64,000 bases of DNA. Origin: Gemmatimonadales bacterium. GTDB lineage: Bacteria; Gemmatimonadota; Gemmatimonadetes; Longimicrobiales; Gaopeijiaceae. The notes below the pieces were generated by a model. The model was not told the origin of the DNA, did not search any database, and was given only the letters and a program-made list of their open reading frames with translations. The position numbers and the translations under genes were made by a program. Below are positions 1,484 to 20,479 of the stretch, piece after piece. How positions within the stretch are numbered: the stretch's first letter is position 1; every line of letters begins with the position of its first letter. Location of the stretch: contig REBS01000121.1 of assembly GCA_007692605.1 (NCBI GenBank), forward strand, positions 20,050-84,049. The letters are read 5' to 3'.

Positions 1484-1921
1484 ATGAGTCGATCACTGAA
1501 CAAGGTCATGCTGATCGGAAATCTCGGTTCCGACCCCGAGATTCGAACCACGCCCTCGGGAACCAAGGTGGCCAAGGTATCGCTGGCAACCAACCGGACC
1601 TTCCAGGACCGATCGGGTCAGCAGCAGGAGAAGACGGAGTGGCACCGCCTCACCTTCTTCGGGAAGCTGGCGGACATCGTCGAGCAGTACGTGACGAAGG
1701 GTGACCGCCTCTATACCGAGGGGCGCCTGGAATACTCCCAGACCGAAGACGACAAGGGGAATGTCCGGTACTGGACCGACATCGTGGTCATGGAGATGGT
1801 CATGCTGGGCTCCACGATGGGCGGGGGGCAACCGGGGGGGGGCGGCTCGCAAGAAGGTGGCGGGTTCGCCGGCCCCTCCGAGCCGGACCTCAGCCAGCCC
1901 GACGACGACCTCCCCTTCTGA
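1484..1921 (+). CDS. ssb: Single-stranded DNA-binding protein
   Basis: MSRSLNKVMLIGNLGSDPEIRTTPSGTKVAKVSLATNR...WHRLTFFGKLADIVEQYVTKGDRLYTEGRLEYS, acidic tail ending DDDLPF. ATG at 1484 with AAAGGAG upstream. Confidence 0.96.
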   Translation: MSRSLNKVMLIGNLGSDPEIRTTPSGTKVAKVSLATNRTFQDRSGQQQEKTEWHRLTFFGKLADIVEQYVTKGDRLYTEGRLEYSQTEDDKGNVRYWTDIVVMEMVMLGSTMGGGQPGGGGSQEGGGFAGPSEPDLSQPDDDLPF

Positions 1922-2331: not shown

Positions 2332-2754
2332 TCAGGCGTCGGTTCCGGCCTCCGACTCCCAGAGCCCGAGCATCTCCCGATCGAACAACAAGGGGTCCTT
2401 TCGGTAGGCCTCAGCCCACTCCTCGAAGCGGGGAAGCTCCAGTTCGCTGGAGATCCGACCGGTGGCGAGCTGGACCATCTGGTCGTAGGAGAGAGGTTCC
2501 GAAGATTCCTCGTTCCGCCCTCGTACCGCGGCTTCGGCGAGCAGGAAGATTTCGTCGGGAGACAGGGTCAGCAACGCCTCGGCCACCCGAGCCGAGCAGT
2601 AATCCAGATACTTGGCACGGAGGACGGCATCGTCTTCCTGAGGTGGCCCCTTTCGTGGCGAGGCTCTTCCAGCGCTGCCCGTCACATTCCCCCCCGCGGA
2701 GAGAGTCCATGACCAGCCGGCCCCCGGAGCGGGGAAAGACTGGAACAGACTCAA
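2332..2754 (-). CDS. Uncharacterised protein, member A of a local paralogous family (module 'ELPRFEEWAEAY'); start uncertain
   Basis: ORF 140 aa; C-terminal half YLDYCSARVAEALLTLSPDEIF...LSYDQMVQLATGRISSELELPRFEEWAEAYRKDP aligns by eye with the proteins at 3423-4052 and 5434-6114. Confidence 0.6.
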   Translation of the reverse strand: MSLFQSFPAPGAGWSWTLSAGGNVTGSAGRASPRKGPPQEDDAVLRAKYLDYCSARVAEALLTLSPDEIFLLAEAAVRGRNEESSEPLSYDQMVQLATGRISSELELPRFEEWAEAYRKDPLLFDREMLGLWESEAGTDA

Positions 2755-2816
2755 CCTGCAGGGTCGAGTAGTGTTCCGTCAAGAAGATCCGATGGGTGGC
2801 GCGAGTGAGACCGTAC

Positions 2817-3023
2817 TCAGAGCGGGAGGGCAACCGGGGAATCGGAGCCCCCGGACGAGGTCTCCTGCTGCTCTCGCAGATGCCGATATACCGACCTCCG
2901 TGTCAGTCCATAGAGTACGATTCGACTGAGAAATTCGGGGTCGGATTCCTGGACCTCCTCCGCTTGCTGGGCGATTTCCCTGGGAAGGCGAACATTCAAC
3001 TGGACGGAGCAGGTCTCCCACAT
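2817..3023 (-). CDS. Ribbon-helix-helix (CopG-like) DNA-binding protein
   Basis: 68 aa; SVQLNVRLPREIAQQAEEVQESDPEFLSRIVLYGLTRRSVYRHLREQ resembles an RHH beta strand followed by two helices; upstream of the 2332-2754 gene on the same strand. Confidence 0.55.
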   Translation of the reverse strand: MWETCSVQLNVRLPREIAQQAEEVQESDPEFLSRIVLYGLTRRSVYRHLREQQETSSGGSDSPVALPL

Positions 3024-3080
3024 AGGCGTTCTCGGATCTCGTCAGGGTAGGAATGGCATGATGTCTGGGGCGTGACGGAA

Positions 3081-3119
3081 CGATCGATCCCGAGGCGATG
3101 GCGCTCCCTCGATCGATCG
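3081..3119. promoter_or_regulatory. Inverted repeat CGATCGATC...GATCGATCG upstream of the RHH gene (candidate operator)
   Basis: 9-bp arms at 3081-3089 and 3111-3119, ~60-95 bp upstream of the RHH ORF start. Confidence 0.35.
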
Positions 3120-3422
3120 GTCCGGGGGCCGTGTCGAGTTCGATCTTATGACGCCTTTGTTTCCGGCGCAAGGCCTTGTCCGAAAGCAGGCGGAACCAAA
3201 GGGTGTTCGGCTAAGTCTAAGCGCTGCAACTGTTTACGGGATTAGACAAAATCCAGAATCAGACGTTCCTGAGCTTTCAGCAACCCGCGTTTTTCGAATT
3301 TTTTTTTCCATCCCCGAGAGGGCGCAGGGAGTTTCGGACTTCCTTTCAGGGAAAGCCACACCCGGCCGGTGACGTATTTTTTACAAAACCCACTTTGTTC
3401 GCCCGGGCGATTTTCCTGGTCC

Positions 3423-4052
3423 TCATCCCGCCACTGATCGGAAAAAAGCCTCGAGGGTAGGGCGAGTGAATTCGTGAAAGCGGTCGAGAATCTCGTCTGG
3501 ACCGTCCCCTCTGAAAATCTCGCCGGTCCGGTGCGAGGAGTTCGTCGCCGGACCATGAAAGCTCATGAACCCGACCCAGCCCCGATCGCTCCGGCGCAGG
3601 TGGAGATGAGCCCAGATCTCGTCCCGCATCTCACGCGTGGACACCGTGACCGGATCGGGACGCGCGGGAGCCGCAGGAATCCCCATCCGCTGGAGGTAGG
3701 GTCGGCGGTCGCTCAGATAACTGCGGACCCAGACCTCGTACGGTGGCAGAGGAAGGAGCTCTTCGGTCACCTCCCGGAGTTCCTCCAGCGACGCGCCCTC
3801 CCGGGGCGGCTCGTGACGGGTCTCAGCGCGGCGATGCCGCCAGATACTTCGCAAGCCCTCTCGCGGGATCAGGGCGAGAAGCTCCTGCGCCTCGCAGCGT
3901 CGATACCTCTCATACAGGGCGCGCAGCGTCTGCGGGAATGGACGAGCCGGGACCCCGACGCGTGGAGACCGGAGGCCGGCACGCCCGAGAGAACGGTCGG
4001 GAGCGGAAGCTTCGGAAGCGTCCGACCCGTACCTCGAGAATGGGGAGATCAA
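3423..4052 (-). CDS. Uncharacterised protein, member B of the local paralogous family (module 1 then module 2)
   Basis: Proposed TTG start at 4052 with GGGGAGG Shine-Dalgarno, overlapping the TGA stop of the upstream gene (TTGA). Contains LRALYERYRR...LEELREVTEELLPLPPYEVWVRSYLSDRRPY, then IWAHLHLRRSDRGWVGFMSFHGPA...HRTGEIFRGDGPDEILDRFHEFTRPTLEAFFRSVAG. Confidence 0.65.
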   Translation of the reverse strand: MISPFSRYGSDASEASAPDRSLGRAGLRSPRVGVPARPFPQTLRALYERYRRCEAQELLALIPREGLRSIWRHRRAETRHEPPREGASLEELREVTEELLPLPPYEVWVRSYLSDRRPYLQRMGIPAAPARPDPVTVSTREMRDEIWAHLHLRRSDRGWVGFMSFHGPATNSSHRTGEIFRGDGPDEILDRFHEFTRPTLEAFFRSVAG

Positions 4053-4984
4053 TGTATCCTCCCCGAGGTGACCGGCTGTGCCGAGCGCAGGGGTTCCGGC
4101 ACAGCACTCATCGTCTCCCCGGCAGAAGGTGCCTTCGAGATACTCGTTGGCGATCCTTTTCGGTCCCCCAGGGTCGCGAGGGAATCGCGCTCCCCGAACC
4201 CACACAGCATCTCGCGTATCGCCTGATATCGCCGGGGCTCGAATCGGGAGAGGAGGTGATGGAAGCCGCGCCGGATTCGCCTCAGTTCCCGGCGCAGTTC
4301 CGCCAGGGAGCGTGCGTGGGGAATCTCCACCCGGTAGCTCTGCGTACCCAGGCCAGCGCCGGACACCGACCGGTCGATCGTCCAGCCGGGGAATCCCTCG
4401 GCCAGCGCCGTCTCGAAGTCGGGATCCCGGTGCGCGTCGCTCGTCCGGACGCAGAGCACCGACGCGGCGGCATCGAGTTCGGCACGCGCGACACCTCCCG
4501 GCAACAGGATTCGTATGGCGAGGGCCTCATTCAGATCCAGGTCCTCGACCATGTCCCGGAATCCCACCCTCAGGAAGAGGGGCCGGGTCTCGGCTGAAAA
4601 CCCGACACGATCGAGAAGCCGAAGGGCATCGTGCCACCAGCCCTCACCCGGAGGTGTATCGAGACCGGACATGGGAGTTGCACGACCCACGAGGCCTCGC
4701 ACCGTCGAAGGGTACAGCCACCCCAGGATCACGATCGGCCCACGCAGGTCGGCTCGCCGGATCTGCCCACTTCCCAGGTCCAGCACCCTCGTCGTGGAGC
4801 CCGCGACCTCGTCGATGACGACACCGAGCCCGAGATCCTCCAACCGACGCCCACCCTCGTGGGCAGGAGACGCCTCCCGGTAGGACACGACCGCCGCACT
4901 CAGCGAGGACTCGCAACGCCCGGTGAAGATCAGGGCCTCTTGAGAACCGAAGGCCACTTCATTGATTCCGACCACGTTCGCCAT
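4049..4984 (-). CDS. Uncharacterised protein (311 aa), coupled to member B
   Basis: Long ORF; stop TGA overlaps the TTG start of the downstream gene; no family recognised. Confidence 0.6.
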   Translation of the reverse strand: MANVVGINEVAFGSQEALIFTGRCESSLSAAVVSYREASPAHEGGRRLEDLGLGVVIDEVAGSTTRVLDLGSGQIRRADLRGPIVILGWLYPSTVRGLVGRATPMSGLDTPPGEGWWHDALRLLDRVGFSAETRPLFLRVGFRDMVEDLDLNEALAIRILLPGGVARAELDAAASVLCVRTSDAHRDPDFETALAEGFPGWTIDRSVSGAGLGTQSYRVEIPHARSLAELRRELRRIRRGFHHLLSRFEPRRYQAIREMLCGFGERDSLATLGDRKGSPTSISKAPSAGETMSAVPEPLRSAQPVTSGRIH

Positions 4985-5015
4985 GGGAGAGATCTCCGTC
5001 GTATTCGCGATTCAT

Positions 5016-5040
5016 AAGGGGCGGGTACAGCCCACCCCTT
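5016..5040. repeat. Inverted repeat AAGGGG(C)GGG-TACAG-CCC(A)CCCCTT in the divergent intergenic region
   Basis: Arms at 5016-5025 and 5031-5040 with one mismatch. Confidence 0.6.
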
Positions 5041-5067
5041 GACAGAGGCCGGTCGAATTACGACTAT
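5039..5067 (+). promoter_or_regulatory. Candidate sigma70-type promoter TTGACA-N17-GACTAT
   Basis: Perfect -35 at 5039-5044, 17-nt spacer, weak -10 GACTAT at 5062-5067. Confidence 0.4.
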
Positions 5068-5073
5068 CTCCCT

Positions 5074-5155
5074 AGATTCTGATGGAGAGCCGTGGGTGCC
5101 AGCCCATGCCTTTCGGAAGAGCCTCCGGGTGCCAGCCCGGGGGCTCTTTTCTGTT
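5074..5155 (+). ncRNA. Candidate short structured RNA: two hairpins with the same UGCCAG hexaloop, the second being an intrinsic terminator
   Basis: Hairpin 1 CGTGGG-TGCCAG-CCCATG (5091-5108); hairpin 2 AAGAGCCTCCGGG-TGCCAG-CCCGGGGGCTCTT (5117-5148) followed by TTTTCTGTTGTTT. Confidence 0.45.
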
Positions 5156-5157
5156 GT
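5117..5157 (+). terminator. Rho-independent terminator reading on the + strand
   Basis: 13-bp stem with one U-G pair that forms only in the + strand RNA, hexaloop, T-rich tail. Confidence 0.65.
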
Positions 5158-5433
5158 TTCCTGTTCCGGCTCCCTCCGCGAGAGAGAAGAACCGCTGGGT
5201 CCGTAACCGAGCTGCCAGGCCCGATCGGAAGCCCACTTCCCTTCCTCGTTGAGGGACCGGCAGGATAACCTGCGATCCCGCCACCGGGCAAGGGACCAGC
5301 CTGACGCTCGAAGCCACCTTCCTTGTCCCTGCCTCATCGATGGGCGATCTTGAAGGCCGACCGGTAGAGCCACGCATCGGCCGGAGTCCACCACCCCCAT
5401 CGACCCCGTGACCTCAGCCTTCCGGGAGGCGCA

Positions 5434-6114
5434 TTGCAGAACGACGAACACCGCCGGCGATCGATGGGCTTCCTCGACCTCGGGGGAGCGACATGGGCGT
5501 GCTTTCTCGTCACCTTCCGGGACCCTTCGGGACGTTGGAAGGGGTTCTTCTCGTTCCGACCCAGGGAAGAGGACCGGGGGCGAGATGAAATCCGCACGGC
5601 CGACATCTTTCTGGAAGATGCAGAGAGCGAAATCGACCGGAAGGCCCGCGGTCTCGGCCGTCCGCTCCTCTCCGGCCTCCTTTCCTCGGCTCTCCACACC
5701 CGGGAGAGGAACCAGCCGGATCCGCCGGCGCTCAGGAACTGGTTCGGCGAAGTGCTCTCCTCGAACTCCCGTGAGGTGGCAGGCGAATGGGAGTCGAACG
5801 ACGAACCCGCCGACGAACGAACCCTCGCCGAACTGCGCTCGATCTACGCGTCGTACCGGATCGACCAGGTCGCGCACTTCATCACCCTCGTCGACCCCGA
5901 GGACTTTCAGCGAACCGTGGACACGATCCTCGACGGCCAGGCCTTCGACTTCAGCACACGCGATCGGCTCCAGTTCGCAATGATGGTCGTCGCCGAGATC
6001 GAGGGGCTTCTCCCCCTCCCTCCCTTCGAGGCCTGGGCCGAGGACTATACCGCTCATCCCGAAGCCTATCGGCAGTACACCCACGAGCTGCACCGAGGTG
6101 ATGATCCGGAGTGA
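5434..6114 (+). CDS. Uncharacterised protein, member C of the local paralogous family (module 2 then module 1)
   Basis: TTG start at 5434 with GGGAGG at 5424-5429. TWACFLVTFRDPSGRWKGFFSFRP...IRTADIFLEDAESEIDRKARGLGRPLLSGLLSSAL, then LRSIYASYRIDQVAHFITLVDPEDF...LLPLPPFEAWAEDYTAHPEAY. Confidence 0.7.
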   Translation: MQNDEHRRRSMGFLDLGGATWACFLVTFRDPSGRWKGFFSFRPREEDRGRDEIRTADIFLEDAESEIDRKARGLGRPLLSGLLSSALHTRERNQPDPPALRNWFGEVLSSNSREVAGEWESNDEPADERTLAELRSIYASYRIDQVAHFITLVDPEDFQRTVDTILDGQAFDFSTRDRLQFAMMVVAEIEGLLPLPPFEAWAEDYTAHPEAYRQYTHELHRGDDPE

Positions 6115-6222
6115 GGGCCTCGCCCCGGCTGCTTTTCCATGGACCCTTGAACCCCATCCGCAATCGCCCTATGTTTAGGGGCTTTTCTAATGTTTTCGCC
6201 CAACCCAAGGACGGTGATACTC

Positions 6223-6426
6223 TTGGAAGTGATCGTTCAGGACGGAGAGAACCTCGAGCGGGCCCTCCGCAAGTTCAAGCGGAAGGTTCAGCGGTCCGGT
6301 CTCTACTCCGAGCTTCGCAAGCGCCGGTTTTACGAGAAGCCGAGTGCACAGCGAAAGCGGAAGAAAGAGGCGGCCATCCGACGGGAACGTCGTCGTCAGC
6401 GTAAAGACGACAAGCCCCGTCACTAG
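6223..6426 (+). CDS. rpsU: 30S ribosomal protein S21
   Basis: TTG start: MEVIVQDGENLERALRKFKRKVQRSGLYSELRKRRFYEKPSAQRKRKKEAAIRRERRRQRKDDK. Confidence 0.95.
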   Translation: MEVIVQDGENLERALRKFKRKVQRSGLYSELRKRRFYEKPSAQRKRKKEAAIRRERRRQRKDDKPRH

Positions 6427-19465: not shown

Positions 19466-20479
19466 CTATCGGGTTCCCGGCAGTCGATCGCGCGCATCGT
19501 TCCTCGACGGCTCGAACTCCTCCGGGGGACGGGTCTTCCAACGACGGTGAAACCAGAAGTACTGCTCCGGGGCCCGTCGCACGGCATCTTCGAGCAGGCG
19601 GTGGAATTCCGCCACGACCCGAAGTACGTCGGCCTCGGTGTCGCCGCTCGCCGCCACCGCGATGGGCGAGATCTCCATGCGGTAGCGAGCGCGCCACCCC
19701 GGAAGCCGAGTCACGGCCATGAACATCACCGGCGCACCCGTCCGAAGCGGGATCACTCCCGGGCCCTTCGCGGCCGACGCCGGGATCCCGAAGAAGTCCA
19801 CGAACACCCCGCCCGACCGGACGTTCTGGTCCGCCACGAGGGCCACCACCCGCCCCTCCCGAACCCCTTTCAGCACGGGACGAAGGGCCGCATGTCGATA
19901 GATGGGACGCATTCCGAACCCCTCCCTCATCTCCCGGACCCGCTCATCGAACAGGGGATTCGACTGCTTGCGTCCCACCACGTCCAGTGGAACATCCCGG
20001 GCCGCCAGCGCCGCTCCGGCGAACTCCCAGTTCCCCAGGTGCCCGGCCAGCAGAACCACCCCTTTCCCCTCGTCGAGCGCGTCGCGCAGAAGAGACTCCC
20101 CCCTGATCTCGCTCCGCTCCCGCACCTCACCTGGGCTCATCGCCCCGAGTCGGAGCAGGACGATCGCCTCGCGACCCAGGTGTCGGTAGGCCGCCCGGGC
20201 CGCCCGAACCCTCCGATCCCGCGACCAGTCGGGGAACGCCCGCTCGAGATTTTCCTCGACGGTCCCCCGTCGGATCCGCAGGACGCTTCCCGCGAGCCAG
20301 CCCAGCCTGGACCCGACCCACTGCGCGAGCCTCTCGGGCAGCAAACGCGCCAGGGCCCCGATACCCACGAGCAGAAGTTCCTGGGCGCGATCCCCGAGTC
20401 CCGGGGCGAGAGGATCCGGATTCCGGGAGTCCCGGGGCACCGCCCCCCGCGCCCCCTCCCCGACGTCAGAGTCCGGCAT
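19466..20479 (-). CDS. Lysophospholipid/lipid A acyltransferase (LpxL/HtrB family)
   Basis: NLERAFPDWSRDRRVRAARAAYRHLG, VVLLAGHLGNWEFAGAAL, VALVADQNVRSGGVFVDFFGIPASAAKGP, PEQYFWFHRRWKTRPPEE. Confidence 0.9.
   Translation of the reverse strand: MPDSDVGEGARGAVPRDSRNPDPLAPGLGDRAQELLLVGIGALARLLPERLAQWVGSRLGWLAGSVLRIRRGTVEENLERAFPDWSRDRRVRAARAAYRHLGREAIVLLRLGAMSPGEVRERSEIRGESLLRDALDEGKGVVLLAGHLGNWEFAGAALAARDVPLDVVGRKQSNPLFDERVREMREGFGMRPIYRHAALRPVLKGVREGRVVALVADQNVRSGGVFVDFFGIPASAAKGPGVIPLRTGAPVMFMAVTRLPGWRARYRMEISPIAVAASGDTEADVLRVVAEFHRLLEDAVRRAPEQYFWFHRRWKTRPPEEFEPSRNDARDRLPGTR

Follow-up and report, generated by a model that had tools for sequence, protein, structure and literature searches.

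Small operons headed by a gene for a ribbon-helix-helix (RHH)-like protein are an already known kind of arrangement. Closest to the locus described here are the Arc/MetJ RHH repressors and the type II toxin-antitoxin operons with RHH antitoxins; a mobile or patchy distribution is typical of the latter, although not strictly defining. Two further groups invite comparison at the level of protein domains: YbjN/AmyR with the class I type III secretion chaperones, and the PUR/Whirly-type nucleic-acid-binding domains (DUF3276, PF11680). Here, we compare with these systems a cluster of five genes, P1 to P5, from a Gemmatimonadales bacterium. The window, that is, the whole stretch of DNA analysed, is 64,000 nucleotides long (positions 20,050 to 84,049 of contig REBS01000121.1), and all coordinates refer to it. 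The genomes used for comparison are mostly metagenome assemblies, the GTDB loci are nearly all labelled Gemmatimonadota, and families carry the labels f1 to f10.

The first-pass annotation had described three paralogous genes in an otherwise unrecognised cluster. The cluster has five genes: P5 (2817-3023(-)) had been missed, and P4 (4049-4984(-)) is the fifth. 'Unrecognised' holds for the proteins, since Pfam, NCBIfam, PADLOC and PHROGs offer no convincing match for any of the five (weak P5 matches aside), but not for the flanks, which are housekeeping genes. These are ssb (1484-1921(+), assigned by synteny), the conserved flank on the P1 side, and rpsU, encoding bS21 (6214-6426(+); PF01165, E 1.8e-21), the conserved gene after P3 in family f1. 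The frames of P1 (2332-2754(-)), P2 (3423-4052(-)) and P3 (5434-6114(+)) are open over the coordinates originally given. The start of P1, however, is probably GTG 2685 rather than TTG 2754, because homologues show M, V or L at this position and similarity is gone upstream of it; the gene would then span 2332-2685(-) and encode about 117 amino acids, with the conserved core LRAKYLDYCSARVA...LSPDEI...LP.FEEW...Y. P2 starts with a TTG codon that overlaps the stop codon of P4, an overlap that suggests translational coupling. The P4-P2 fusions seen in several genomes are apparent only: the two open frames overlap but are not in the same reading frame. All cluster genes are under purifying selection, with dN/dS of 0.05-0.17 against the nearest relative (0.095 for P1, 0.052 for P5).

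P1, P2 and P3 share two modules, as had been proposed from the letters of the sequence, and profile comparison confirms both. Module 1 is common to all three proteins (Z 21-39) and module 2 to P2 and P3. Their order is indeed swapped: P2 carries module 1 (about 3678-3932) followed by module 2 (about 3429-3641), P3 carries module 2 (about 5449-5697) followed by module 1 (about 5824-6093), and P1 consists of module 1 alone. Two-sequence BLASTP relates the three module-1 pairs at E = 7e-6 to 9e-5. For hhalign, profiles were built from 51-71 homologues, drawn from relatives and from 76 GTDB loci, and each pair was set against 150 column-shuffled controls. Module 1 of P3 and P2 aligned with a probability of 99.0 and a score of 102, versus a shuffled maximum of 20 (Z 39); the corresponding probabilities were 97.8 for P3 and P1 (Z 21) and 98.0 for P2 and P1 (Z 26). 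Module 2 of P3 and P2 reached a probability of 98.8 and a score of 86, versus a shuffled maximum of 17.5 (Z 31). The first-pass annotation had named an alignment no better than shuffled sequence as grounds for giving up the family; every pair outscores all of its shuffles. The AlphaFold2 model of P3, of moderate confidence (mean pLDDT 74, pTM 0.51), has a strand-rich domain at about residues 7-93 and a five-helix domain at about 131-220, matching the two aligned segments.

Neither module had been recognised at the outset, and neither has a match in Pfam, NCBIfam, PHROGs, PADLOC or the PDB, and significant fold or profile matches are likewise absent. Judged by the libraries searched, both are undescribed domain families. 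Foldseek with the P3 model returned no match below E 0.1. Module 2 is like the PUR/Whirly domains in its bbbb-alpha layout and similar size, and Borrelia Pur-alpha appeared at rank 48 of the P3 Foldseek search (E 1.7); unlike them, it lacks a profile match. Since neither profiles nor families support it and no fold match is significant, the identification of module 2 as a PUR domain was rejected; PF11680 itself is absent from 101 Gemmatimonadota genomes. Comparison of the cluster with anti-phage defence families gave no match in PADLOC and none of significance in PHROGs. Searches of the open-licence literature yielded no title or abstract dealing with these genes.

Conservation within the cluster is highest for P5, which encodes 67-68 amino acids whose sequence is Arc-like (VQLNVRLPREIAQQAEEVQ..DPEFLSRIVLYGLTRRSVYRHL); we infer for it an Arc-type RHH fold. 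By eye, its segment VQLNVRLPREIA... aligns with QFNLRWPREV of Arc. Read against QLNVRLPREI of P5, this alignment presumably places P5 Q8, N10 and R12 at the base-contacting Q9, N11 and R13 of Arc, so that the Q-x-N-x-R residues would stand in what we take to be the DNA-reading strand. P5 resembles the Arc/MetJ repressors in length and in the strand-helix-helix pattern that its sequence suggests. It differs from them in being always paired with P1, and Pfam Arc (PF03869) is matched by just 2 of 68 P5 members, at E 0.008, the window protein itself having no match; searched against PDB profiles, P5 gave nothing below E 1. P5-like proteins are also encoded on four IMG/VR contigs (L253-L256), which may be of host origin despite their place among viral sequences.

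The promoter region of P5 is conserved. Read from the sequence, a predicted sigma-70-type promoter at 3143-3171(-) combines TTGCGC (3166-3171), a 17-nt spacer and TAAGAT (3143-3148), and a TTGCG-N17-TATnAT arrangement likewise precedes P5 in other loci. Upstream of it, about 210 bp from P5, lies a 25-bp palindrome (3212-3236) with the consensus TAAGTcgTTGtnnnACAAcgACTTA, of which the window copy (TAAACAGTTGCAGCGCTTAGACTTA, minus strand) is weaker than most. Motif finding by EM placed the palindrome as the best-scoring site in 65/65 P5 upstream regions, with a log-likelihood of 747 versus 60-76 in five shuffled sets, a collective signal in which individual copies can be weak. Its distance from the P5 start is 202-228 bp in 64 of these regions and 180 bp in the remaining one (L070). 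The palindrome is enriched class-wide, including in f5 genomes with no detected P5; autoregulation by P5 through this site is therefore not supported, and another regulator probably reads it. An RNA hairpin is disfavoured as well, since the half-sites vary independently. Further copies precede type IV pilin (L194, L217), flagellar (L187, L190), HU (L222) and exported-protein genes, as called with a crude ORF picker.

P4, of 311 amino acids, combines an N-terminal strand-rich domain with a C-terminal a-bbb-a-bb-a domain in an AlphaFold2 model that is confident for most of the chain (pLDDT 81, pTM 0.77). In the model, the C-terminal elements follow the order of the YbjN/class I secretion-chaperone fold. 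This fold class recurs among the Foldseek matches, which include SchA, YbjN, ExsC, SycN-YscB, SigE and AmyR, although none is significant (E 0.04-0.35, all above 0.04). Unlike these proteins, P4 has an additional N-terminal domain; it shows no sequence match to them, and no secretion genes were seen close to it. The protein ends in a near-invariant Val-His, the codons of which overlap the P2 start (4049-4052). A predicted P4 promoter lies at 5264-5292(-) (CTTGC ... GGTTATC). Its motif, TTGCn6cgtAAAcanATgGTTATcgT, is conserved before P4 in most of 70 loci, with a weak copy in the window (13.8 bits). Between P4 and P3 there is also a short unit at 5039-5157(+), with a TTGACA-N17-GACTAT promoter, two GCCA-loop hairpins and a terminator T-run. 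It is present in eight loci, with compensatory change in 3 of 22 predicted pairs and a covariation term near zero. No Rfam family reached its gathering threshold over the window, and the best sub-threshold match (5115-5157) is a terminator-like hairpin.

The members of the family do cluster in other genomes. The order ssb> <P1 <P5 <P2 <P4 | P3> rpsU> is found in most of the 76 GTDB loci and is nearly invariant in f1, though P2 or P3 went undetected in some genomes. Family f2 retains P5, P1 and P3 with ssb adjoining, while P2 and P4 were not detected. Across 200 genomes of the phylum, P5 occurs in 72, one copy each, and P1 matches were found in every one of the 72. The two genes are adjacent in every distant genome examined, lying away from ssb and rpsU in f4, f7 and f9. 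In f7 they form triplets with module 2, which is there a gene of its own of about 93 amino acids (L154, L155, L156, L160). In one case (L155, 6201-9695), genes for a response regulator and a probable histidine kinase come directly after the triplet, with no gap between. One locus labelled Gammaproteobacteria (L069, Ww582) shows the Gemmatimonadota synteny, and its label or bin is probably wrong.

The reading that we tentatively prefer, at something short of an even chance, is that the locus encodes a vertically inherited, lineage-specific regulatory operon or complex of Gemmatimonadota, in which P5 works with module-1 and module-2 partners; vertical inheritance of the five-gene cluster is part of this explanation and is held with the same reserve. 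A different reading of the gene order is that the proteins form an accessory complex of DNA metabolism and, instead of regulating transcription, act together with SSB and break repair. The cluster indeed adjoins ssb in f1 and f2, and Ku and/or LigD genes adjoin P5-P1 in f9 (L147, L149, L150). The neighbours vary from family to family, however, being a two-component system or glycosyltransferases in f7, and the adjacency to ssb may merely reflect gene order conserved in one lineage. Moreover, the proteins have no domain in common with known repair proteins. We consider such a complex rather unlikely, and a repair role was not adopted from ssb adjacency alone because the neighbours change between families.

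Both modules also occur outside the cluster. Module 2, fused or alone, is present in 117 of 200 genomes. The source genome has a stand-alone copy elsewhere (L040, 5771-6094(-)), as do many other genomes. Such copies (L040, L165-L176, L239-L241) lie beside MscS or ABC transporter (ABC-2 permease) genes in f1 and beside glnA in some f4 and f6 genomes. In the module-2 tree, P2, P3 and the f7 copies stand apart from the stand-alone copies elsewhere, and the f7 in-operon copies join P3 (97/94), tentatively so given 85 columns. Module 1, as P1, is joined to an EAL domain in a single genome (L071, 6858-8105(-), with the same gene in L046; PF00563, E 2.6e-62, 210.7 bits). In f4, f5 and f6 it stands at the N-terminus of proteins of 260-300 amino acids (L257-L266), the rest of which is methyltransferase-like; here module 1 aligns with P1 at an hhalign probability of 97.0 (Z 19.6), and Methyltransf_25 passes its cut-off of 27 in L264 (28.5 bits, E 2.5e-6) and falls below it in the others. 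These fusions fit a putative adaptor or interaction domain. The first-pass annotation had taken the permutation to suggest two independently folding units that probably work together, and both halves of that claim gain support: module 1 occurs alone, as P1, or on EAL and methyltransferase-like proteins, and module 2 occurs alone; a single locus has the two joined in either order, and in f7 they stand as adjacent separate genes behind P5. The coexistence of both fusion orders with a split operon form is the strongest genomic sign that modules 1 and 2 would act together.

The same fusions could be taken to place the locus in signalling linked to second messengers or modification, with module 1 sensing or localising and the EAL domain, the methyltransferase-like domain or module 2 acting. 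The EAL fusion, though, comes from a single genome, most of the methyltransferase-like members match that family weakly, and the window proteins P1 to P5 are without an enzyme domain, so that we regard this signalling role as distinctly improbable.

Slightly less probable still is a type II toxin-antitoxin-like pair, with P5 as RHH antitoxin, P1 as toxin and P2 to P4 as accessory proteins. As in toxin-antitoxin operons with RHH antitoxins, a short RHH-like gene directly precedes a small partner, and P5 and P1 co-occur strictly. Unlike in such operons, the cluster is single-copy, with one P5 per genome, and holds a fixed synteny; searches for plasmid and phage homologues of P3 and for plasmid homologues of P1 found none; P1 and its module lack a toxin-family match in Pfam, NCBIfam and PADLOC; and the partner domain is reused on EAL and methyltransferase-like proteins. 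That the likeness of P1, P2 and P3 is chance or low-complexity similarity, for which their pairwise BLASTP identity of just 26-30% might speak, is refuted to the point of near certainty by the shuffled controls; the retention of the P3 family in about 40 genera and the agreement of the predicted domain boundaries with the aligned segments also speak against it.

Under the regulatory-operon reading, P5, the predicted Arc-type RHH protein, would be the core and would bind DNA as a dimer, with P1 co-encoded as a helical adaptor made of module 1. P1 and the module pairs may dock on P5 or on each other through module 1. Module 2 would be a small strand-plus-helix domain paired with module 1, separate in some lineages and fused as P2 and P3, and P4 might join in f1 as a binding or chaperone-like subunit, as its modelled fold hints. 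The complex could tune genes of DNA handling or the cell surface. These targets are a guess, made because the neighbours include ssb and Ku-LigD and because a cis element is shared with type IV pilin genes; no single target is anchored, since the neighbours differ between families. Two stronger versions are also conceivable and appear doubtful to us: that the phylum has an undescribed modular signalling platform, in which a very small RHH protein brings in exchangeable module-1/module-2 subunits and, in relatives, the module-1 adaptor is used on EAL and methyltransferase-like domains as well; and, an outside chance of much the same order, that the locus is a categorically new kind of system.

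In this abundant, little-studied phylum of soil and water bacteria, conserved genes from families not described before represent biology that annotation has missed. The two new domain families, the five-gene neighbourhood and the fusion architectures provide concrete handles on the role of the proposed complex, and the class-wide palindrome may mark out a regulon, with type IV pilin and flagellar genes among its members.
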